DNA of 30,458 nucleotides, from the IMG/VR virus record IMGVR_UViG_3300036831_000243, positions 1 through 30,458 of that record. One strand, written 5' to 3'. Positions 1-19,179 of the stretch are shown here, in pieces. Position 1 is the stretch's first letter. Each line of letters starts with the position of its first letter. The DNA comes from a virus. Position numbers and translations under genes: made by a program. Under the pieces are notes generated by a model. That model ran no database searches, had not been told where the DNA came from, and saw only the letters and a program-made list of their open reading frames with translations.

Positions 1-489
1 TTACTTCTTCTTCTTACCCTTGCCGTTCTGAGGGGGCTTCTTCGGCCGCCTGCGCTGCACCTCGGCGGCGAGCATGCGGATCGTGCCTAACAACTCGGCC
101 TTATCTTCGTCCGACAGCTCCTCAAAGCCTTTGAACATTACGAAGATTTCGCTATCGAAGACCTCGGGTGCGGAGAGGGATTTACCGCGCGCCGCCGCAA
201 AAACTTCATCCTCGGAGACGCCTAAGCCTCTGGCGATGGCTCTCAACTTATCGCGGGAAGGATTGCTCGCGGCACCGCTCAATAACTTGCTTAAATAACT
301 ATGTGTGATTTCCCCGCCGCTCTGTTCTTCAATGCCACGCAGGGTCAGCCCCGGAACGTCTGTTAGTTTTTCCCGGAGGTAATTCGCCAAATCATCATCG
401 TGTTTCCTGGACACGCCGCGAAAAATAATATTTTCAGCGGGTACTGCGAGAACCTTTTCGGTGAAAATAATGCTTGACATGGTTTCCAT
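1..489 (-). CDS. XRE/Cro-CI-type transcriptional repressor
   Basis: A 162-aa protein and the only leftward gene in the window. Residues about 45-100 form a Cro/C1-type helix-turn-helix: LTLRGIEEQSGG, then SYLSKLLSG and DKLRAIARGLGVSEDEVF, the usual pattern in which recognition helix and following helices choose an operator. The C-terminal half (EELSDEDKAELLGTIRMLAAEV) looks helical and suits dimerization, and the tail is lysine-rich. There is no LexA/CI-like peptidase domain, so RecA-driven self-cleavage is not expected. Two in-frame ATGs (489 and 480) are possible; neither has a good Shine-Dalgarno. It is divergent from the RHH gene at 540 with an 18-bp palindrome between them, the standard layout of a phage immunity region. 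Role as lysogenic repressor is inferred from fold and position. Confidence 0.85.
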   Translation of the reverse strand: METMSSIIFTEKVLAVPAENIIFRGVSRKHDDDLANYLREKLTDVPGLTLRGIEEQSGGEITHSYLSKLLSGAASNPSRDKLRAIARGLGVSEDEVFAAARGKSLSAPEVFDSEIFVMFKGFEELSDEDKAELLGTIRMLAAEVQRRRPKKPPQNGKGKKKK

Positions 490-4540: not shown

Positions 4541-5053
4541 ATGCCTGAAAAGTTAGCGATAGACACGACCGAGCTTGAAGACCTGATCGCCGACGGTAAG
4601 AGCGTGAAGGAGGCCGCCGAAGAGATGGGAATCCACGCGACGACGCTGTACCAGCGCTCGACCACGGATCAGGAAGTGAAGGGAGCCATCACCCGCGGCC
4701 AGGCGCGCGCCCGCGCCGACGGTAACGGCGCGGGCGCTACGGCGAACGGGAACGGCACGGGCGGCCCGCACGCGAATGCGCAGACCGAGCCGACCGCGCG
4801 CAGGAAGGGGGCGAAGAAAGCCGGCGGGAAGAAACGGGGTGCAGTCAAAGCCGCGGGCGCGAAAAAACAGGCCACGCGCATGCGCAAGGGCGCGGCGCAG
4901 GAGCCTCTTACTGCCCCCCCCCTCAACAATTACGGCGACGCCCTCGAAGCCGCCTACATCGAGCTTCTCTACGTCCGCCGCTACCGTGTTTCAAGCGAGC
5001 GCTCCGGAGAGGTGATTCGCCAACTGGAGGCGGCGCGCGCGACTTCGAATTAA
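4541..5053 (+). CDS. HTH protein with histone H1-like basic tail
   Basis: A 170-aa protein starting at 4541 after GGAAGGAG. Residues 10-52 (LEDLIADGKSVKEAAEEMGI, then HATTLYQRSTTDQEV) look like a homeodomain-type HTH similar to those that precede phage packaging and regulatory proteins. Residues 58-85 are Gly/Asn/Ala-rich. Residues about 87-122 are Lys/Arg/Ala-rich (ARRKGAKKAGGKKRG and AKKQATRMRKGAA), like bacterial histone H1 or HU tails. The C-terminus (ALEAAYIELLYVRRYRVSS) is helical. It probably binds DNA both specifically and non-specifically. Whether it is a regulator or a nucleoid-type protein is unknown. Confidence 0.6.
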   Translation: MPEKLAIDTTELEDLIADGKSVKEAAEEMGIHATTLYQRSTTDQEVKGAITRGQARARADGNGAGATANGNGTGGPHANAQTEPTARRKGAKKAGGKKRGAVKAAGAKKQATRMRKGAAQEPLTAPPLNNYGDALEAAYIELLYVRRYRVSSERSGEVIRQLEAARATSN

Positions 5054-5065
5054 GGCGCGCGGGGG

Positions 5066-5129
5066 ACTGATTTTCGCCCCATTCGCCCATGTCAAAAAGT
5101 GACACGGGCGAATGGGGCGAAAATCCAGT
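5066..5129. repeat. long inverted repeat upstream of integrase
   Basis: Two perfect 20-bp arms (5069-5088 and 5106-5125) are separated by an inner TGTCA-AAAAG-TGACA hairpin and one A/C mismatch. With one bulged C (5126), three more pairs form (5066-5068 with 5127-5129). The symmetry centre is at 5097. The stem is not followed by a T-tract on either strand, so it is not a classical terminator. It overlaps an upstream ATG (5112) of the integrase frame. Confidence 0.9.
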
Positions 5130-5171
5130 AAAAATGCGGGTTGCGTGGGTCGCGGGGGTCTTCTGACGGTT

Positions 5172-6227
5172 ATGAAAAAACCCATTCTCATAACCAAGCC
5201 TCCGGAGGGGCCGGGCCGCGGCCTCATCCGTCTCGTCGGCGGGCGCGCCGCAACGGCCTCGGCGCTCGACAATCTCCACGCCTTAAACCCCGCCCGGCGC
5301 TACCTGGACACGCTTAGTCCGGGCTCGCGCCGGGCCGGTCGGGTCTGCCTCCTCCGGGTCGCCCGGGCGCTCCGGGTGCCCTTCGACGCGGTGCCGTGGG
5401 AGCTGCTGCGGGCCTCCCATATCGAATCGCTCAGGGCGCGCATGCAGGACGCGCGCCTCAGCTCCAGCTCCATCAACGGGACTCTGGCCGCACTCAAAGG
5501 CGTCGCGCGCCAGGCGTTCGCGCTCCGGATGCTCGCGGCGGAAGAGTATCAGCTCATCCGCGAGGTGCGGGGCGTGCGCGGCTCGCGCACGCAGGCGGGC
5601 CGGGCGCTCGCCGTCACGGAGGTCGCCGCGCTCCTCGATGCCTGCGTGCGCGACCCGTGCCGGGCGGCAGGCGCGCGCGACGCCGCCCTGGTCGCGCTCC
5701 TGGCCGGCGCCGGCCTCCGCCGGGCCGAGGCCGTCTCCTTGAGAGTCGAAGACTATCGCGCCCGCTCGCACGCTCTGCGTGTCCACGGCAAGGGCGACAA
5801 GGAGCGGGTCGTCTACTTCGACGACGGAGGCGCGCGCAAAGCCTTGCTCGCCTGGCTGGAGGTCCGCGGGGCAGAGCCGGGGCCGATGCTCACGCCCGTG
5901 GATCGCGCCGGCCACGTCCAGGTGCGCCACCTGACGGGCGAGGCCGTCTACAAGGCTCTGCGAAAGCGCGCGCGCGAGGCCTCGGTCACGCGCCGCTTCT
6001 CGCCGCACAGTCTGCGTCGCTTCTTCGCAACGCGACTCCTCGACGAGGGCGCGGGGTTAGGAGAAGTGTCGGGCCTTCTGGGTCACGCCTCGGTCGTGAC
6101 GACGGCCATCTACGACCGGCGCGGCGAGCGAGCGCGGCGCGAGGCATCGCGGTTGATCAGCTTGCCGTATCGCGGCGCGTCGGGTCGTCGCCGGCGGAAG
6201 CGAAGGAAGCGCCGCCGGCGCTCTTAG
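5172..6227 (+). CDS. int: tyrosine recombinase (XerC/D-type phage integrase)
   Basis: A 351-aa protein with an N-terminal SAM-like core-binding domain (about 35-135) and a C-terminal catalytic domain. The full active-site set is visible: R183 (GLRRAEAVSL), K207 (VHGKGDKERVVYF), H279 and R282 (SPHSLRRFFATRLL), H305 (LLGHASVVTTAIY) and the nucleophile Y314. The last 13 residues are almost all Arg/Lys. An earlier ATG (5112) lies in the long inverted repeat, so I chose ATG 5172 although no good Shine-Dalgarno precedes either. It would catalyse site-specific integration and excision; the neighbouring inverted repeat is a candidate binding or regulatory site. No int-adjacent attP core could be proven. 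Confidence 0.92.
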   Translation: MKKPILITKPPEGPGRGLIRLVGGRAATASALDNLHALNPARRYLDTLSPGSRRAGRVCLLRVARALRVPFDAVPWELLRASHIESLRARMQDARLSSSSINGTLAALKGVARQAFALRMLAAEEYQLIREVRGVRGSRTQAGRALAVTEVAALLDACVRDPCRAAGARDAALVALLAGAGLRRAEAVSLRVEDYRARSHALRVHGKGDKERVVYFDDGGARKALLAWLEVRGAEPGPMLTPVDRAGHVQVRHLTGEAVYKALRKRAREASVTRRFSPHSLRRFFATRLLDEGAGLGEVSGLLGHASVVTTAIYDRRGERARREASRLISLPYRGASGRRRRKRRKRRRRS

Positions 6228-6243
6228 GCTGAAAGGGGGAGAG

Positions 6244-6516
6244 ATGATCACGGACGCCAAAAAAGAGGCCATCACCAGGCGCGCCGCGGAGAGACTTCGC
6301 GAGCGCGAGGCCCCGATCACCTTCGAGTTGGACGTGACGCTGGTCGTCGGATAGATCGGGCAGCTTCAGCTTGCCTTCAGGCACCCCGGCAACAGCGGCC
6401 CGACGCGCCAGATGCTCGAGTGCTTCGTCCGCGACCTGATCGAGCGGATAGACCCCGAGCACGGCGACGTGCACACGTTCCTGATGATGGGCTTTTGCGA
6501 GGAGTACGACGAATGA
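6244..6516 (+). pseudogene. small phage gene interrupted by an in-frame TAG
   Basis: Read from ATG 6244 after AAAGGGGGAG, the frame is open to 6351 (ending DVTLVVG), meets TAG at 6352-6354, then continues open in the same frame for 53 codons (IGQLQLAFRHPGNSGPT, then CFVRDLIERIDPEHG) to TGA at 6514-6516. That stop overlaps the next ATG as ATGA. The second half looks like real coding sequence: the 'QLQLAxRHPGNxGP' stretch is familiar from small phage proteins. One C-to-T change in CAG would explain the stop. Genes around it end in ordinary TAG, so genome-wide recoding is unlikely. Read-through by a suppressor tRNA or a sequencing error remain possible. Confidence 0.7.
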
Positions 6517-6713
6517 CGCGCGAAGCAACCGCGGACGCTTGCCCCAAATGCGGCTCGACCGACATCAAGACCTGGACGGCCATCGGCCAGTGCCCGATGG
6601 CCGTGTGCCGCGCCTGTAAACACCGCTGGACTCTCTTCGTCCGGGCCTGGAAAGAAAAGGGCGAGCGAAATAAGCGCGCCGCCGCGCTTTCTGCGAGAAA
6701 GGTCGGACAATGA
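6513..6713 (+). CDS. small zinc-ribbon protein
   Basis: A 66-aa protein from ATG 6513 (ATGA overlap; GAGGAG at 6499-6504, 8 nt upstream). ACPKCGSTDIKTW and AVCRACKHRW give C-x2-C ... C-x2-C, a classic zinc ribbon, followed by a basic tail. Such ribbons occur in small phage proteins that contact nucleic acid or polymerase. Specific function unknown. Its stop overlaps the next gene. Confidence 0.75.
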   Translation: MTREATADACPKCGSTDIKTWTAIGQCPMAVCRACKHRWTLFVRAWKEKGERNKRAAALSARKVGQ

Positions 6714-6823
6714 ATAGACGAATTCAGAAACTGCTCGACGTCGTCATTATCGGCGGCACCCTGGCGCTGGTTGGTTGGCTCTTCTACTACGCCGTCACGC
6801 GCGGCTATCTCAATTTGATGTAG
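6710..6823 (+). CDS. 37-aa single-pass membrane protein
   Basis: A short gene starting at the ATG of an ATGA overlap with the zinc-ribbon gene and ending TAG at 6821-6823. Residues about 9-27 (LDVVIIGGTLALVGWLFYY) form one transmembrane helix, with MNRRIQK, a positive N-terminus, on the likely cytoplasmic side. The next gene's ribosome binding site (TAGGAG) includes its stop codon. Possible roles are a small membrane regulator or exclusion peptide; nothing specific can be shown. Confidence 0.65.
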   Translation: MNRRIQKLLDVVIIGGTLALVGWLFYYAVTRGYLNLM

Positions 6824-6831
6824 GAGCCGGG

Positions 6832-7194
6832 ATGAAGAACAGGCCGACAGGAATCATTCGCACGCTGCCATCATTCAAGTCCGGCCAAGTCGGGCGCCTC
6901 AAGATGGAGCGCGCGATCGCGCTCATGGAAAAGGGGCGCGACGTGGAGATTTACATCGCGCTTTCAGCGCAGCCCAAAGTCGAGGTGCTTCACATGTACC
7001 TGCTCATCGAGGGCCGCATCGAGCTCCGCATGAACATCTCCGGCTACCTACCGGGCGACCGGCGGGAGTGCTGGGACGGCACGCATCGCCAGCCAAAGTT
7101 TTGGGCGGTCTGCACTGCGCCGGTTACTCGTCCCGAGGAGCCGATCAAGCGGCGCGGCTTTCAAGGTTTCCGCTATACCGAGGAGCTTTGGTAG
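6832..7194 (+). CDS. hypothetical phage protein
   Basis: A 120-aa protein starting at 6832, 5 nt after TAGGAG. It is basic, with strand-rich central segments (VEVLHMYLLIEGRIELRMNISGYLPGD) and CWDGTHRQPKFWAVCTAPV toward the end. No family recognised. It lies in a run of coupled accessory genes between integrase and the lysis/head region. Confidence 0.6.
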   Translation: MKNRPTGIIRTLPSFKSGQVGRLKMERAIALMEKGRDVEIYIALSAQPKVEVLHMYLLIEGRIELRMNISGYLPGDRRECWDGTHRQPKFWAVCTAPVTRPEEPIKRRGFQGFRYTEELW

Positions 7195-7196
7195 TG

Positions 7197-7397
7197 ATGA
7201 AAGAGATAACACTGGCAATCAAATTCTTCCGCAACGAAGAGGGCGACGTTATGGCCGTGCTCAAAGAGCATCCAGGCCTGTCTGCTTTCGGCCCGACGCC
7301 AAACGAGGCTTTGAAAGAGGTTGGGCTAATGATTCAGAACGTGGCCGAATCTTTCATCGAACAAGGTGACACCTTTTCGGAATTTGAAGGTCTATGA
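7197..7397 (+). CDS. HicB-like small protein (orphan)
   Basis: A 66-aa protein from ATG 7197. LAIKFFRNEEGDVMAVLKEHPGLSAFGPTPNEALKEVGLMIQ matches the pattern of the HicB partial-RNase-H fold: beta strand, acidic turn, strand 'xxExPGLxxxG', then 'TxxEALxExxxxI' helix. HicB proteins usually neutralise HicA toxins. No HicA-like ORF (50-80 aa, Gly-x-His motif) is next to it and no extra DNA-binding domain is attached, so it may be a solitary anti-toxin-like protein that protects against a host toxin, or simply a fold relative. Confidence 0.6.
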   Translation: MKEITLAIKFFRNEEGDVMAVLKEHPGLSAFGPTPNEALKEVGLMIQNVAESFIEQGDTFSEFEGL

Positions 7398-7510
7398 TGA
7401 ATTTCAAGCGAGAGCCACTCTTCTGGATCGCCGCCGCAGCGCTCGCGCTGCTCTTAGTCACACTGGTGTCTTCCATCGTGGACGACGTGGCCGCGACTTG
7501 GGGACGTTGA
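7394..7510 (+). CDS. 38-aa single-pass membrane protein
   Basis: A short gene beginning at the ATGATGA overlap with the HicB-like gene (ATG 7394 or 7397). After MMNFKREP comes one hydrophobic helix, LFWIAAAALALLLVTLVSSIV, then an acidic end (DDVAATWGR). It is the second membrane micro-protein in this operon. It might be a small holin-like or exclusion peptide, but no test is possible from sequence. Confidence 0.6.
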   Translation: MMNFKREPLFWIAAAALALLLVTLVSSIVDDVAATWGR

Positions 7511-7530
7511 AGGGAATCGTGAACATGAAG

Positions 7531-7579
7531 TTAACTTATAAGTTAAAGGATAACTATAACGTCAGATAATAGTAGTTAT
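7531..7579 (+). promoter_or_regulatory. AT-rich promoter/operator region with two inverted repeats
   Basis: A perfect 16-bp palindrome, TTAACTTATAAGTTAA (7531-7546), is followed by an inverted pair ATAACTA (7550-7556)/TAGTTAT (7573-7579). TTAACT (7531-7536), 18 bp, then TATAAC (7555-7560) form a candidate promoter. The region is strikingly AT-rich for this genome and precedes a new operon starting at 7634. Confidence 0.5.
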
Positions 7580-7633
7580 GTGGAAAGGGAAAGCGCGAAG
7601 TTCAACCGCCACCCGAACCGAAAGGAGTTTCTG

Positions 7634-7747
7634 ATGATTAAAATCGTCATTTTATTTCCCAGCGGCATGCTGGCCGGCGGCTCGCACAACGCCTTCGTCC
7701 GCATCGGGGAAGCCTTTACGGTCCTGACTAAGGGGGCAAGCAGGTGA
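7634..7747 (+). CDS. 37-aa hypothetical protein
   Basis: A small gene with a clear AAGGAG (7622-7627) 6 nt upstream. It ends TGA at 7745-7747, overlapping the GTG start of the next gene. The protein (MIKIVILFPSGMLAGG, then NAFVRIGEAFTVL) is mildly hydrophobic and may form a small beta structure. No family recognised; signals and coupling support translation. Confidence 0.6.
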   Translation: MIKIVILFPSGMLAGGSHNAFVRIGEAFTVLTKGASR

Positions 7748-8298
7748 ACCTCACGGAAGAACAACTTGAGCGCATCGCCGAAGTTGCACAGACGGCCAAC
7801 AACCTGCTCGGCGCGCTGGAGCTGCCGCTGCCGGCGCACCTGCACCTCGAGGGCTGCCGCGGGAACATCCAGGACATGCGCGACGAGCTGCGCAAGATCG
7901 TCGTCGAGCTGAAGGGCGAAGACCCTTGGGAGGGCGTAAATATACTTGGCGCACCATCTCTTGCCAGATTGCGGATTACGGATTGCAGAATGAGTGATAA
8001 GGGAGAATTTTTCATCATTCATCATTCCCTTATCCCCTATGGTGAGCCAACTATATTATTACCCTTGGGAGGGACATCCGGGATGGCGCTGAATCTTGAA
8101 GAGGCGCTCGAAGTACTCAAACGCCATCGCCACCGCTCAAGCGACACCTGGGCCGTGGTGCGCGGCCTGCGCCACGTCCAGGTGCGCGCCTTCCACGACT
8201 CGCCCAGCCCCGAATGGCTCACGGAGTTCGAGACCATCGCCATCGCCGAGAAGTACCAGCGCGACGCTGCGCCCGGTGCAGATCATGACGAAAGTTAA
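7744..8298 (+). CDS. chimeric ORF made by MITE insertion joining two genes
   Basis: A 184-aa reading frame from GTG 7744. Residues 1-64 are a helical protein of its own (LTEEQLERIAEVAQTANNLL, then DMRDELRKIVVELKGEDPWEG). Residues 65-113 are encoded by a MITE-like element (7935-8060) plus its second target copy. From codon 114 the frame is that of the next gene (ATG 8083). Deleting one 13-bp repeat and the insert restores ...EDPWEGHPGWR and a stop that overlaps the next ATG, giving a 69-aa ancestral protein. The insertion therefore replaced the natural end and fused the genes in frame. Whether the long form is made is unknown. Confidence 0.65.
   Translation: MNLTEEQLERIAEVAQTANNLLGALELPLPAHLHLEGCRGNIQDMRDELRKIVVELKGEDPWEGVNILGAPSLARLRITDCRMSDKGEFFIIHHSLIPYGEPTILLPLGGTSGMALNLEEALEVLKRHRHRSSDTWAVVRGLRHVQVRAFHDSPSPEWLTEFETIAIAEKYQRDAAPGADHDES
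7922..8073. mobile_element. 126-bp MITE-like element with 13-bp target site duplication
   Basis: ACCCTTGGGAGGG occurs at 7922-7934 and again at 8061-8073. Between them, 7935-8060 is AT-rich with imperfect terminal inverted repeats: TAAATATACTTGGCGCACCAT near the left end pairs with the complement of the right end, with two mismatches and one indel. Internal features are GATTGCGGATTACGGATTGC tandem repeats and an inverted pair, GATAAGGGA/TCCCTTATC. It has no transposase, so it would be mobilised in trans. TSDs of 10-13 bp are known for IS4-type elements; the parent family is not identified. Confidence 0.75.
8083..8298 (+). CDS. hypothetical protein, intact downstream half of the chimera
   Basis: Read from ATG 8083 after TGGGAGGG (SD about 10 nt upstream, supplied by the second target repeat), a 71-aa protein: LEEALEVLKRHRHRSSDTWAV, then VQVRAFHDSPSPEWLTEFE. 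This is the native gene that existed before the MITE insertion, since the restored upstream gene would stop at the overlapping TGA. It likely still has its own start. Function unknown. Confidence 0.6.
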   Translation: MALNLEEALEVLKRHRHRSSDTWAVVRGLRHVQVRAFHDSPSPEWLTEFETIAIAEKYQRDAAPGADHDES

Positions 8299-8316
8299 TT
8301 CCCCGCCCCGCCTGAC

Positions 8317-8346
8317 CTGTCACTTTTCCACACACTCCGACATAAT
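8317..8346 (+). promoter_or_regulatory. weak candidate promoter
   Basis: CTGTCA (8317-8322), 18-bp spacer, then CATAAT (8341-8346), with 4 and 5 matches to the consensus boxes. It is the only promoter-like pair in the 115-bp gap before the gene at 8414. Confidence 0.3.
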
Positions 8347-8413
8347 GCTTGCGTTTGGCTCGCCCCGGACTCTCACGGAGTTCTCGACGAATTTCAGGCC
8401 GCAAGGAGGGCTG

Positions 8414-8626
8414 ATGGCGGACGATCTGACGACAGACGAAGTGGCCGAGTTCGGCGACATCTTCGCTGAGATAGACCACGCGAAGGCGCGACTCGAACGG
8501 GCCGCACAGATGCTTGTGCAGCGCGGCTACCGCGAGCGTGCACACAAGCTCCTCGGCACAGCTCAGGTGGCCGACTCTCAGAAGTATCTGCTCGTGCAGG
8601 ACTGGCGGCAGAAGCCCGCCGCATAG
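8414..8626 (+). CDS. small helical hypothetical protein
   Basis: A 70-aa protein starting at 8414 after AAGGAGGG. It is mostly two amphipathic helices (TTDEVAEFGDIFAEIDHAKARLERAAQMLV, and ERAHKLLGTAQVADSQKYLLV), suggesting a helical hairpin or coiled-coil dimer. No known family recognised. It is followed by a 9-bp hairpin, so its transcript may end there. Confidence 0.6.
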   Translation: MADDLTTDEVAEFGDIFAEIDHAKARLERAAQMLVQRGYRERAHKLLGTAQVADSQKYLLVQDWRQKPAA

Positions 8627-8634
8627 ACACGAAA

Positions 8635-8666
8635 GCCGTCTCGTACAAAGCTGCGACCGAGACGGC
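8635..8666 (+). terminator. hairpin, possible weak terminator
   Basis: A perfect 9-bp stem, GCCGTCTCG (8635-8643)/CGAGACGGC (8658-8666), 14-nt loop. Only AATCGTTTA follows, so the T-tract is weak. It lies just after the stop of the preceding gene, in a 150-bp gap. Confidence 0.45.
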
Positions 8667-8776
8667 AATCGTTTAATGGGCCTCGCGCGAAACCCGACTA
8701 ACCATGTGTGCTAGAAAGCGTAAGCCGTCGCTTGCGCCCGTGTCAACCCTGCACAAGCACAAGGAGCAAAAACCTT

Positions 8777-9193
8777 ATGGCAACCCCTGAAGGTAAGATC
8801 GACGATAAGAGTGGCGACAAGGGTTCATCGTTCGCCCAGGAGCGCGCGGCGTCCACACAGACAGGTAGCATCGAGGCCGAAGGCGGCCTCCAGCCCGGCG
8901 GCGTCTTTCGCTCACAGGCCACACAGACAGGCGACATCAAGGGCGAAGGCCAGGCCGGCTACATTCCCTTCGCAGAGACAGGCCGGACGTTCGCCAAATG
9001 GTTCAACGACGCGCTGACCCGCGCCAACAAACCCACGATCGCGCTGGGCACGAAGACGGCCACCGTCATCATGCTCCGCGACGACGGCGTGCTCGTCGTG
9101 GACGTGGACGGCGAGGACGTGAAGGGCGACCGGCAGCACGTCGCGCTCGATGCGGCGCACCTCAATGCGCTGATGCCCCAGCTCAAGGGCTGA
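8777..9193 (+). CDS. hypothetical protein with internal repeat
   Basis: A 138-aa protein from ATG 8777, with AAGGAG 10 nt upstream. The N-terminal half is Gly/Ser/Thr-rich and low complexity, with two copies of a short unit (STQTGSIEAEG and ATQTGDIKGEG). Residues 36-45, GGLQPGGVFR, are identical to a peptide in the tape measure protein (residues 836-845). The C-terminal half (TATVIMLRDDGVLVVDVDGEDVKG) appears to form beta strands. Function unknown. The shared peptide hints at interaction or gene conversion with the tail gene, but this is inference. Confidence 0.6.
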   Translation: MATPEGKIDDKSGDKGSSFAQERAASTQTGSIEAEGGLQPGGVFRSQATQTGDIKGEGQAGYIPFAETGRTFAKWFNDALTRANKPTIALGTKTATVIMLRDDGVLVVDVDGEDVKGDRQHVALDAAHLNALMPQLKG

Positions 9194-9215
9194 AGCGCCT
9201 GACACCTGACGAGCC

Positions 9216-9256
9216 GAGGGGCGCGTGGCCGCTGATACCCACGCGCCTCTCATTTT
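9216..9256 (+). terminator. intrinsic terminator
   Basis: A 13-bp stem, GAGGGGCGCGTGG (9216-9228) with CCACGCGCCTCTC (9239-9251), one G-U pair, then ATTTT. It stands between the genes at 8777 and 9269. Confidence 0.8.
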
Positions 9257-9268
9257 GAGAGGAGACCT

Positions 9269-9517
9269 ATGGCGCGCACTTATGAGATCGCCTGCCACGA
9301 TTGCAAGGTCAGGTTGTGGATCGGCCAGGGCAGCGGTGAGAAAGCCTACATCTACTCGACCGATAGGCACATAAAGCAACTGCGCGATTTCCTCTTCAAT
9401 CACCAGTATCACCGGCTTGAGTTCGGTGACGATGAGCGTCTCGCGCTAGACGACTATATGGAACTGAATTCTGATGACGATTACGACATCAGCACCCCTG
9501 AGGGAGGAAAGCCGTAA
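9269..9517 (+). CDS. small phage protein with CxxC motif
   Basis: An 82-aa protein after GAGAGGAGACCT. ACHDCKVRLWIGQG opens with one CxxC; LRDFLFNHQYHRLEF adds two histidines, so a metal site of C, C, H, H is possible. The end is Asp-rich. The 'CxDCxxxLWxGQ...FLxxHxxHxL' arrangement is familiar from small phage proteins, but no function is known to me. Its stop is directly before the next ATG. Confidence 0.65.
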   Translation: MARTYEIACHDCKVRLWIGQGSGEKAYIYSTDRHIKQLRDFLFNHQYHRLEFGDDERLALDDYMELNSDDDYDISTPEGGKP

Positions 9518-9958
9518 ATGATCCCTGAAGTGAAGAAAGTCTGGGTCGCCGAGCGGCTGCCGTGGATGCTTAAAGCCTATGAAGAGGCGGAGGCCATCCG
9601 TGACGCCATCAGTGGCATGAACGAACATATATCCGACCGGATAAATTCTATGATCATGGGCGGGAGCGTGACCGAGGCCGAACATCCGTCGGTGCCCACT
9701 CTGACCTATCAGTCGTTGAAGGGGCTGCACGATTATTACAAGACCGAGACGCTGCGCATCGGTGACGAGGAACATGAGATATTCGGCTACAGCGTACATC
9801 AGGACGGACACATGCTCGAAGGTTGCGCCGTGCTGATAGAGAAGCGTCCGCCTAACGAGTGGCCACCGCGCACGCCGAAGATGCTCATCATAAACACAAC
9901 GGAGGGCACAGCTATTATGTATGACCCTGAAGGCGAGGCTGATGGCGCACATACTTGA
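9518..9958 (+). CDS. hypothetical phage protein
   Basis: A 146-aa protein whose ATG follows the preceding TAA directly; GGGAGGA lies about 10 nt upstream. Acidic and mixed (LPWMLKAYEEAEAIRDAISGM, then EHEIFGYSVHQDGHMLEGCAVLIE). No motif recognised. Codon use is less GC-rich than that of the structural genes, like its neighbours to 11240. Confidence 0.6.
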   Translation: MIPEVKKVWVAERLPWMLKAYEEAEAIRDAISGMNEHISDRINSMIMGGSVTEAEHPSVPTLTYQSLKGLHDYYKTETLRIGDEEHEIFGYSVHQDGHMLEGCAVLIEKRPPNEWPPRTPKMLIINTTEGTAIMYDPEGEADGAHT

Positions 9959-10220
9959 GACCTGCACGTGCCGGGGTTGTGAGGGATTGAGAGACATGCA
10001 CCGCGTGACATCAGGCCAATGTCCCTATTGCCGCCTCGGCTTCAGTACGACTGAAATGGAATGGGCGCAACACATTAAGGAATGCCGCGCCTCCGCAGAG
10101 CACCAGGCGGCAATGTCCTACCGGCTCGGCTCTCATTCATGGCAAGGCGATGAGCCGAGCGAGCCCGCGCCTCAAGTAATGCTGCCCTTTCAAGGTACTT
10201 CCCCAGCCTCGAAAAAGTGA
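9942..10220 (+). CDS. small zinc-finger protein
   Basis: A 92-aa protein; ATG 9942 is chosen, ATG 9921 would lengthen the overlap with the preceding gene. TCTCRGCEG and CPYCRLGFSTTEMEWAQHIKEC give two Cys pairs and a C2H2/C2HC-type finger (C-x2-C ... H-x3-C). The tail is Pro/Ser-rich. Probably nucleic-acid or protein binding; function unknown. Confidence 0.6.
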   Translation: MAHILETCTCRGCEGLRDMHRVTSGQCPYCRLGFSTTEMEWAQHIKECRASAEHQAAMSYRLGSHSWQGDEPSEPAPQVMLPFQGTSPASKK

Positions 10221-10265
10221 GGGTAACGCGCCACCCCAAATTGTCGCTAGTCATAGGACTTTTAT

Positions 10266-10278
10266 TCAAATCATCAAC
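10266..10278 (+). repeat. left 13-bp direct repeat of the endonuclease cassette
   Basis: TCAAATCATCAAC, repeated exactly at 11246-11258. The two copies bracket the endonuclease gene and its partner. They may be an insertion footprint. Confidence 0.6.
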
Positions 10279-10362
10279 GAGTCAGGCGGTTTTCTTCGTA
10301 TTTACTGAGGAATTTTTAATTTTATGTTGGTGACTCGTGGTAAAATATCGCCAATAAGAAAC

Positions 10363-10394
10363 GGCTTGAACGAAGCGTCAACTTCGCCCAAGCC
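10363..10394 (+). other. leader hairpin before the endonuclease gene
   Basis: GGCTTG (10363-10368)/CAAGCC (10389-10394) encloses CGAAG/CTTCG (10371-10375, 10382-10386) with a 2x2 internal loop and a 6-nt loop. It follows an extended -10-like TGGTAAAAT (10338-10346) and lies 20 nt before the ribosome binding site, so it may be in the 5' leader. The rest of the 208-bp gap is AT-rich and shows no gene. Confidence 0.45.
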
Positions 10395-10428
10395 TAACCA
10401 CGTCACTTGCGATAGGAGCGCAAGCAGC

Positions 10429-10968
10429 ATGGCTACTTCCGAACATAACATACCTACATCGAAGCGCTGCAAGAGGTGTGGCGAGGAGAAACCACTGGAA
10501 GCTTTCTACAAGTTTTCAGAGGGTAAGTATGGCCGACGCCCCGATTGCAAAGCCTGTCACAATAAAATCCGGGCAGAATGGGCGAGAACTAAATACCAGC
10601 CGAAGACCGGACGCCGCTATCGAAGGGATAGAGCGCCATATGGACAAGGTAAAAGATATGAGCCGATTATAGCTGGCCGCTTCCTCTACCTTTTTCACAT
10701 GACGCTTGATGGCAAGTCGGTCTATAAAATCGGAATATCTAAAGACCCGATTTTCAGACTCGGCGTCCTGCGCCGCGCCTACCAAGCCGAGATTACTTTC
10801 AAAGGCTCATTCTACTTTCGGAACGCCGTCAGGCAGGAGAACAAATGGCATCGTGAATTTCGGCAGCGCCGGATATTTATCCAGGGATGTCGTGAGTGGT
10901 TTAGGCTCACAAGTGACGAAGTAAATCTTTTCCTGAAGACCAACCTTCAAATGGAGGATGTCAAATGA
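10429..10968 (+). CDS. GIY-YIG-type (T5orf172/MUG113-like) endonuclease with zinc finger
   Basis: A 179-aa protein from ATG 10429, with AGGAG 10 nt upstream. Residues 14-43 (CKRCGEEKPLEAFYKFSEG, then DCKACHNK) form a four-Cys zinc ribbon common in phage homing endonucleases. Residues about 84-170 carry LYLFH, SVYKIGISKDPIFRLGVL, ENKWHREF and EWFRL, the order of the T5orf172/MUG113 branch of GIY-YIG nucleases (Tyr, Arg, Glu and His of the catalytic site). Lower GC than its neighbours and flanking direct repeats point to horizontal acquisition as a mobile cassette. Nuclease activity is inferred from family. Confidence 0.75.
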   Translation: MATSEHNIPTSKRCKRCGEEKPLEAFYKFSEGKYGRRPDCKACHNKIRAEWARTKYQPKTGRRYRRDRAPYGQGKRYEPIIAGRFLYLFHMTLDGKSVYKIGISKDPIFRLGVLRRAYQAEITFKGSFYFRNAVRQENKWHREFRQRRIFIQGCREWFRLTSDEVNLFLKTNLQMEDVK

Positions 10969-17062: not shown

Positions 17063-17644
17063 ATGTCATTTGCAGACCATTTGCCGGAATACGAGCCGGA
17101 GCGCATCGCCATCGGCGAGACAGCCGAGTGGCGAAAGGTCGTTCCCGACTTCCCGCCAGGCGAAGGCTGGACGCTCACGTACTACGTCCGCGGCGCAGGC
17201 CGCGGCTTCGATCAGGCCGGAGTAACGGACGGCGATGGCTACAAAATAGTCGTCGCGAACACCGTCACGGCGCTCATGTCCGCCGGCAAGTATTACTTCG
17301 AGGCGCGGGTCTCCAACGGCTCGGAAGAGCACGAGGTCGCGCGCGGCGAGATGCTGGCCGTCCTCTCGATCAAGGGGATGGCGACGACCGCCACGCTCGA
17401 CGATCGCAGCCCGGCCCAGCAGATTCTCGACGCGATTGACGCGATGGCCGTCGGCAAGGCCACGCTCGACCAGCAGAGCTACCAGATCGGCACGCGCCAG
17501 CTCGCGCGCATCCCCATCTCGGAACTCCTGAAGCTCCGCTCCACTTACGCGCAGCTCGTCGCGCGCGAGCGCCGCGCGGCGCGGCTCAAAGAGGGCGCGC
17601 CGTTCCTGAAAAATGTTCTCGTGAGGTTCGACCGCCCGCAATGA
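17063..17644 (+). CDS. gpW-like head-tail joining protein
   Basis: A 193-aa protein between terminase and portal, where lambda has gpW. The C-terminal half (SPAQQILDAIDAMAVGKATLDQQSYQIGTRQLARIPISELLKLRSTYAQLVARERR) has the helix-strand-helix order of gpW: two helices around a short basic hairpin. The N-terminal half (GEGWTLTYYVRGAG, then YYFEARVSNGSEEHEVARGEML) is a beta domain. Larger than lambda gpW (68 aa), so it is gpW-like with an extra domain. Joins head to tail by inference. Confidence 0.6.
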   Translation: MSFADHLPEYEPERIAIGETAEWRKVVPDFPPGEGWTLTYYVRGAGRGFDQAGVTDGDGYKIVVANTVTALMSAGKYYFEARVSNGSEEHEVARGEMLAVLSIKGMATTATLDDRSPAQQILDAIDAMAVGKATLDQQSYQIGTRQLARIPISELLKLRSTYAQLVARERRAARLKEGAPFLKNVLVRFDRPQ

Positions 17645-19179
17645 TAAGCCTGTTTGAGCCGGGAGACCTCCCGCCCATGTCAGAGGTCGTGCGAGAGCGC
17701 CGCAGCGTCGCGCAGAAGCGCCGCGCGGCCATAAAGCGCACCTACGCCGCCGCGCAGTTCAACCGGCTCACGAACGACTTCGTCTCGCAGCGCACGTCCG
17801 CCAACGCGGAGCTCAGGCGCGGGCTTCGCACGCTGCGCGCACGCTCGCGCGAGCTCGCGCGCAACGACGACTACATGAAGAAGTTCCTCTCGATGGTCGT
17901 CTCGAACGTGATCGGCCCGGCGGGGATCAAGCTTCAGCCGCGCGCGGAGGTCTCAACCGGCAAGCCCGACGAGAGGTTGAACAAAGCGGTCGCCGCGGCG
18001 TGGTCGCGCTGGTCTCACAAGGAGTACGCCTCGGCCTCCGGCAAGCTCTCGTGGGTTGACGCGCAGCGTTATTACCAGAGGGTCTTGGCGCGTGACGGCG
18101 AGGTTCTGTGTCAGTTCGTCGAAGACAGTAACCCTTACGGGTTTTCGATCAAGTTCATTGATGTGGACTGGCTGGATGAGACCTACAATTTGCTCCTGCC
18201 GAACGGCAATAGAATTTTGATGTCGGTCGAGGTGGACCAGTACGGCCGGCCAGTCAATTACTGGCTCACGCCGCCCTCTTACGATTACCTCTACCCGGAG
18301 AACGGGCGCGCCCGGCAGAGAGTCGCGGTGCCCGCCTCGGAGATCATCCACGACTTTTTAGTCCTCGACGATGAAGAGCAGACGCGCGGCGTGCCGTGGG
18401 CGCACACGGCAATGCTCCGCCTGCACAGCCTCGGCCAGTATGAGGAGGCGGAGATAATTGCCGCGCGCGTGGCCGCCTGCAAGGGTACGTACATCATCCC
18501 GCCCGCAGACGACGAGCTCGCGGGCGAAGGCGAGGACGCGCTCCACCCGCAGATCGAGGAGTCCATCGAGCCGGGCATGAGTCAGGAGCTTCCGCCCGGA
18601 TACACCGTCCACGACGTGAACCCACTTCACCCGAACGCGAACGTCGCGGGCTTCTCGAAGGTCATCCTTCAGGGCGTCGCCGCTGGGCTAGACGTGGACT
18701 ACGTCACGCTCGCCAACGACCTTGCCGGCGTCAACTTCTCATCCATGCGTGGCGGGATGATCGAGACGAGGGACGTTTACCGCGGCCTCCAGACGCACGC
18801 CAAAGAGCACTTCTGCCGCCCCGTCTATCTTCGCTGGTTGAGGCAGGCGATCTTCATGGGCGCAATCGAGGGCGCGCACGCCTCGGACTTCGCCCGCCTC
18901 GACGAGCCGAAGTTTCAGCCGCGCGGGTGGGATTGGGTTGACCCGATGAAGGACGTGCAGGCGACGGTGATGGCGATCAACAACGGACTCGACTCGCGCA
19001 CCGACGCGCTCGCCGAGCGCGGCGAGGACTTCGAGCACGTCGCGCAGAACCTCAAGGCCGAAGCCGACATCGCCGGAGAGTACGGCCTCAACCTTTCCGC
19101 CGGCGCGCCGACGAAGCCCTCCGTGAAGGCCGAGGAAGGCTCGGAAGACGAGGGCGGGGACGGCGCTTCTCACAAATAG
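17641..19179 (+). CDS. portal protein (lambda gpB family)
   Basis: A 512-aa protein overlapping the previous gene by 4 bp. N-terminal Arg-rich helix, then the conserved core (LRARSRELARNDDYMKKFLSMVVSNVIGPAGI, then FIDVDWLDETYNLLLPNGNRI, then VPASEIIHDFLV). The central 'EIIAARVAACKGTYIIPP' and 'GYTVHDVNPLHPNANVAGFSK' blocks are also typical. It forms the dodecameric ring through which DNA enters. The acidic C-terminal tail is as expected. An 18-bp repeat shared with 11873 covers its stop codon. Confidence 0.95.
   Translation: MISLFEPGDLPPMSEVVRERRSVAQKRRAAIKRTYAAAQFNRLTNDFVSQRTSANAELRRGLRTLRARSRELARNDDYMKKFLSMVVSNVIGPAGIKLQPRAEVSTGKPDERLNKAVAAAWSRWSHKEYASASGKLSWVDAQRYYQRVLARDGEVLCQFVEDSNPYGFSIKFIDVDWLDETYNLLLPNGNRILMSVEVDQYGRPVNYWLTPPSYDYLYPENGRARQRVAVPASEIIHDFLVLDDEEQTRGVPWAHTAMLRLHSLGQYEEAEIIAARVAACKGTYIIPPADDELAGEGEDALHPQIEESIEPGMSQELPPGYTVHDVNPLHPNANVAGFSKVILQGVAAGLDVDYVTLANDLAGVNFSSMRGGMIETRDVYRGLQTHAKEHFCRPVYLRWLRQAIFMGAIEGAHASDFARLDEPKFQPRGWDWVDPMKDVQATVMAINNGLDSRTDALAERGEDFEHVAQNLKAEADIAGEYGLNLSAGAPTKPSVKAEEGSEDEGGDGASHK

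Follow-up and report, generated by a model that had tools for sequence, protein, structure and literature searches.

Introduction

Transposable elements of the IS1595 family usually have 8-bp duplications on their flanks, and Merlin elements, which are related, carry a terminal 5'-GG; outside the IS1016 group, IS1595 elements have a Zn finger and a DDE domain (PMC8101967). Within that group, ISApl4 also generates 8-bp repeats (PMC12561309). Bacterial MITEs are short, bounded by terminal inverted repeats (TIRs) and flanked by a target duplication; they contain no gene and are presumed to be moved by a transposase acting in trans. A literature search for MITEs and IS1595 in Acidobacteria returned nothing specific.

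Here we describe a short element in a temperate phage, contained in a 30,458-base viral record that was analysed over its whole length (the window). The element resembles the IS1595 family (Zn_ribbon_IS1595 plus DDE_Tnp_IS1595) in its GG...CC ends, its 8-bp duplication and a TIR of the type found in full-length elements, but it is only 131 bp long and lacks a transposase. It shares all of the MITE features listed above, but it lies in a phage, and no other copy with its interior came to light. We propose, with a probability of about 0.93, that it is a MITE that would have been mobilised in trans by an IS1595-family transposase of the bacterial host, of a type common in one class of Acidobacteriota. 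It is an ordinary mobile element, of a known kind, in a little-studied host group.

Results

A short segment bounded by IS1595-type ends

A sequence-only reading of the window had described a 126-bp AT-rich segment between two copies of a 13-bp sequence, and this proved exact: ACCCTTGGGAGGG occurs at 7922-7934 and again at 8061-8073. At a spacing of ~100-200 bp, the whole window has just one other exact 13-mer repeat, AGCGCCGCGCGGC (17568-17580 and 17717-17729), which lies in predicted coding sequence. The features of the locus are as follows.

7933-8063, no strand assigned: putative non-autonomous IS1595-type MITE, 131 bp, termini GG...CC; ends set by comparison with ten longer elements that share its TIR and have perfect 8-bp duplications
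7925-7932, no strand assigned: target duplication CTTGGGAG, left copy, 8 bp
8064-8071, no strand assigned: target duplication CTTGGGAG, right copy, 8 bp
7922-7934, no strand assigned: 13-bp direct repeat, first copy, made of ACC (target), the 8-bp duplication and GG (element)
8061-8073, no strand assigned: 13-bp direct repeat, second copy, made of ACC (element), the 8-bp duplication and GG (target)
7933-7955, plus strand: left TIR, GGCGTAAATATACTTGGCGCACC; the degenerate TIR pattern described below was written to include this end
8041-8063, minus strand: right TIR, GGTAATAATATAGTTGGCTCACC on that strand; near-identical ends were found elsewhere by blastn before any pattern existed
7967-7993, plus strand: heptamer-type repeat around GATTGCGGATTACGGATTGCAGAATG, resembling dispersed Acidobacteriota repeats (blastn, 92-96% over 25-28 nt)
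7996-8004, plus strand: internal inverted pair, arm GATAAGGGA
8011-8033, plus strand: TTCATCATTCATCATTCCC-type repeat, also dispersed in genome G490 (exact 23-nt match)
8026-8034, plus strand: internal inverted pair, arm TCCCTTATC

The internal GATTGCGGATTACGGATTGC repeats and the inverted GATAAGGGA/TCCCTTATC pair reported earlier are indeed present. The imperfect terminal inverted repeats also stood, with one correction: once the GG is counted in, the supposed indel vanishes, and the ends match in inverted orientation at 18/24 positions without a gap, a score reached by 0 of 20,000 shuffles. The element has a GC content of 42%, against 63% for the window, and each strand of the segment gives a better fold than shuffled sequence does (z -3.4 and -4.0). 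A promoter scan placed a single site, on the minus strand, within the left end (7967-7939), where 0.2 would be expected, and Rfam gave no match in the window. Since its 131 bp hold no transposase gene, the element is not an autonomous IS1595 member.

A family of terminal repeats in Acidobacteriota

Our entry to the phylum was a Holophagae bacterium (L003), the single match to a first pattern among genome contigs; the palindromic repeat at this locus has GTAGGGTGGGCC ends, is of another type and was not accepted as a relative. When the segment was compared by blast with 396 Acidobacteriota genomes, only its interior was matched. Within one Acidobacteriota class (that of G260, 162 genomes), blastn gave two further matches, in two other genomes, that fell on the right end (L045 and L056). 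At L056 both ends are present, 1.1 kb apart, with CAAATTTG on each side.

From the ends of the window element, L045 and L056 we built a degenerate TIR pattern, GGGYRWWAATATASTTGRCKCACCA, allowing up to 3 mismatches; the ends of the window element were among those used to write it, so that it matches them perfectly by design. It matched 50 of the 162 genomes of the class, with 118 matches listed, against 1 for the reversed-pattern control, and the highest count in the class (9) was in G443. A stricter pattern matched 3 of 297 genomes sampled across the phylum. A shorter one gave four 1-mismatch matches in another class (38 genomes), the same as the four in its control.

Ten longer elements with these ends (1.1-8.5 kb) carry perfect 8-bp duplications directly outside GG...CC, namely CAAATTAT, CAAGGAAG, ATTATTTT, CAAATTTG (twice), CTAATTTG (twice), CTATTTTC, CTTTCAAG and CAAATCAG. 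Seven have the form C-N6-G, a tendency that CTTGGGAG fits, and in none of the ten does the duplication extend to 13 bp. Because this rule holds in the ten relatives, we bound the window element at 7933-8063, with CTTGGGAG lying directly outside GG...CC on both sides and with TIRs that begin GG and that it has in common with full-length members. The 13-bp target duplication originally proposed is thereby reduced to 8 bp.

This leaves five extra repeated bases, which we read as the target and the element ends matching by chance. Such a match is expected about once in 1000 for a given insertion, which counts against our reading and is uncomfortable, although the family rule is consistent. The perfect 13-bp repeat would instead be accounted for by a true 13-bp duplication around an element at 7935-8060 if the transposase came from another family, one whose duplications are long. 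We consider this highly improbable, since ten relatives with the same ends duplicate exactly 8 bp, the GG/CC belong to the element whatever flanks it, and the core CTTGGGAG fits the relatives' C-N6-G tendency.

Full-length relatives carry an IS1595 transposase

Of the 10 longer elements with duplications, 9 contain sequence homologous to the IS1595 transposase, as a gene or a remnant. Full-length relatives with both a Zn ribbon and an IS1595 DDE transposase are among the elements with paired ends: six transposases pass the NCBIfam model NF033547 (183-210 bits, cut-off 75), and the same six pass Pfam DDE_Tnp_IS1595 and Zn_ribbon_IS1595. Five of these lie in elements with perfect duplications (L099, L100, L102, L108 and L111); the remaining one, in L114, is bounded by paired ends at which no duplication could be recognised. 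By tblastn, the transposase region is nearly full length in L106, L112 and L113, a broken remnant in L098, and absent from L115 and from the short elements. The earlier suggestion that a non-autonomous transposable element left its insertion footprint here is strongly supported, and the transposase family can be named as IS1595.

Two viral contigs, L151 and L153, hold elements of the same end type with perfect 8-bp duplications; unlike the window element, these are 1.5-3.5 kb long and carry genes. In L151, a phage contig that encodes a terminase and a portal, the IS1595 element at 4747-7533 has the same ends, the perfect duplication AAACGCAG and a DUF3800 passenger. The IS1595-type ends of L153 are nested and side by side, such that the element at 5419-8947 (CAAATGAA) encloses another at 6936-8463 (ATCGGCTC), while at 8979-10588 paired ends without a matching duplication surround a C-5 DNA methylase-like frame. 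The same contig encodes, on the minus strand (2099-2983), a 294-aa protein with the IS1595 transposase Zn ribbon and an HNH endonuclease domain, in which Pfam finds no DDE domain.

The TIR of full-length elements contains TTGACT, with a -10-like hexamer, seen by eye, ~17 nt further on and before the transposase start (for example L151:7511-7533 and L152:432-454), and it may double as a -35 box. DUF3800 recurs in three other elements with IS1595 ends (L101, L106 and L113), and several passengers match antiphage-defence models or domains: Schlafen/AlbA_2 with HATPase (L098), AIPR/AbiU-like (L099), GmrSD_N/NsnA-like with a RiboL-PSP-HEPN neighbour (L102), PDC-M24B-like (L111) and GmrSD/HEC-06-like (L112). 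The IS1595-end elements of Acidobacteriota may be a candidate defence-cargo transposon family.

Short relatives and the origin of the interior

Pairs of these ends also occur just 110-183 bp apart, without a transposase, in six genomes (G431, G443, G444, G445, G488 and G497). Two short pairs in G497 have one common interior, and the short elements of G444 and G445 look alike. Among the short copies a duplication was seen only at L110, with one mismatch; most have none that is recognisable. The search for relatives with the same termini, proposed earlier, yielded such copies in genomes, and none with the same interior. The window interior is absent from all short elements with these ends, and searches of viral contigs, phages, plasmids, genome contigs and the 162 genomes gave no second copy of it. 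A double-TIR pattern search of the viral contigs gave no match, and distant blastn comparison gave only 25-31-nt matches of low significance in phages and none in plasmids. Judged by its ends, the window element belongs to a MITE-making family, and of this particular MITE one copy is known.

The interior resembles dispersed GGATTGC-type repeats, which it matches at 92-100% in several Acidobacteriota genomes. It might therefore be supposed that the segment is simply a dispersed heptamer-repeat hairpin of the host (GGATTGC / GGAATGATGAAT type), with no transposable element involved. At the loci read, though, such repeats have neither TIR nor duplication, whereas the TIR and 8-bp duplication in the window fit a transposon family, and the repeat looks more like material internal to the MITE; we give this explanation very little credence. 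In several Acidobacteriota genomes, inverted heptamer repeats of the GGATTGC / GGAATGATGAAT type occur commonly (various loci, L029-L067), and a literature search with the heptamer sequence found no paper.

Effect on two small phage genes

The insertion lies at the junction of two small genes, with the following features.

7744-8298, plus strand: open frame of 184 aa that passes through the insert, made of 64 aa of the upstream gene, a 49-aa linker and 71 aa of the downstream gene
8083-8298, plus strand: downstream small phage gene, which keeps its own ATG
8067-8073, plus strand: GGGAGGG, Shine-Dalgarno-like, 9 nt 5' of the downstream ATG, read from the sequence

Joining the flanks over one duplication restores a 69-aa upstream protein ending in EDPWEGHPGWR, with its TGA (8090) just inside the gene that starts at ATG 8083, as had been predicted. 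The insertion adds 139 bp, that is 3 x 46 + 1, and shifts the frame by one, so that the upstream frame enters the downstream gene through the insert. The fusion of the two genes, which the sequence-only reading had also claimed, holds for the reading frame but would not necessarily extend to the protein, because the downstream gene retains its ATG and GGGAGGG, the latter made of the right-hand duplication and the next GG of the target, and can still start alone. We think it improbable that the two formerly separate small proteins are now expressed and retained as one new 184-aa phage protein, joined by a 49-aa linker of transposon origin.

The whole 184-aa frame matches no Pfam family and neither half matches a PHROG. 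No homologues of the two flanking proteins were found in viral contigs, the 162 genomes or phages, and tblastn against the prophages of G443 and G446 gave no convincing match. The related phage with an empty site, for which a search had been proposed, was not found in any of the collections covered (viral contigs, the 162 genomes and phages), where neither small protein has a recognised homologue. That the segment is native to the phage, either as the linker of one 184-aa gene or as a regulatory hairpin, with a direct repeat due to chance or selection, would suit the open frame and the good folding of the strand but hardly deserves belief, given that removing the segment yields the usual tight overlap of two phage genes, that its ends are those of a transposon family, and that neither the frame nor its halves belong to a recognised family.

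A related prophage in a genome rich in these ends

The phage itself is defined by the following genes.

1-489, minus strand: repressor-like protein
5112-6227: tyrosine recombinase

Further genes of the window are those for terminase, portal, major head protein and tape measure, and one for a tail protein that is fibre-J-like. In G443 (contig C11), a prophage has a terminase 60% identical to that of the window, and its repressor, integrase, terminase, portal, capsid and J-like protein follow the window's order. Because of this prophage kinship, and because G443 has the most TIR matches, a relative of G443 is likely to be both the host and the source of the element.

Discussion

Our results suggest a model in which a host transposase of the IS1595 family (Zn ribbon plus DDE) would recognise ends of the GGYAATAATATAsTTGrCkCACC type and insert the MITE by an 8-bp staggered cut, duplicating CTTGGGAG. 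The target before insertion would have read ...GAAGACC-CTTGGGAG-GGACATCC..., and the element would have entered it during the phage's stay in a host cell, probably in the prophage state. It would have struck within the final codons of the upstream small gene, at the ribosome-binding site of its neighbour. The added 139 bp would then have caused the upstream stop to be bypassed, carrying the upstream frame into the downstream gene, while the right-hand duplication and the two next bases of the target would have supplied the full GGGAGGG for the downstream gene.

The window offers an IS1595-type MITE whose limits within a temperate phage can be placed precisely, and ties that phage to one Acidobacteriota class by two lines, prophage kinship and a common TIR family. 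It also illustrates how chance matches between the target and the element ends can make a target duplication, if judged by the direct repeat, look longer than it is. Beyond the MITE itself, the IS1595 transposons whose passengers match defence models are perhaps the more interesting object.
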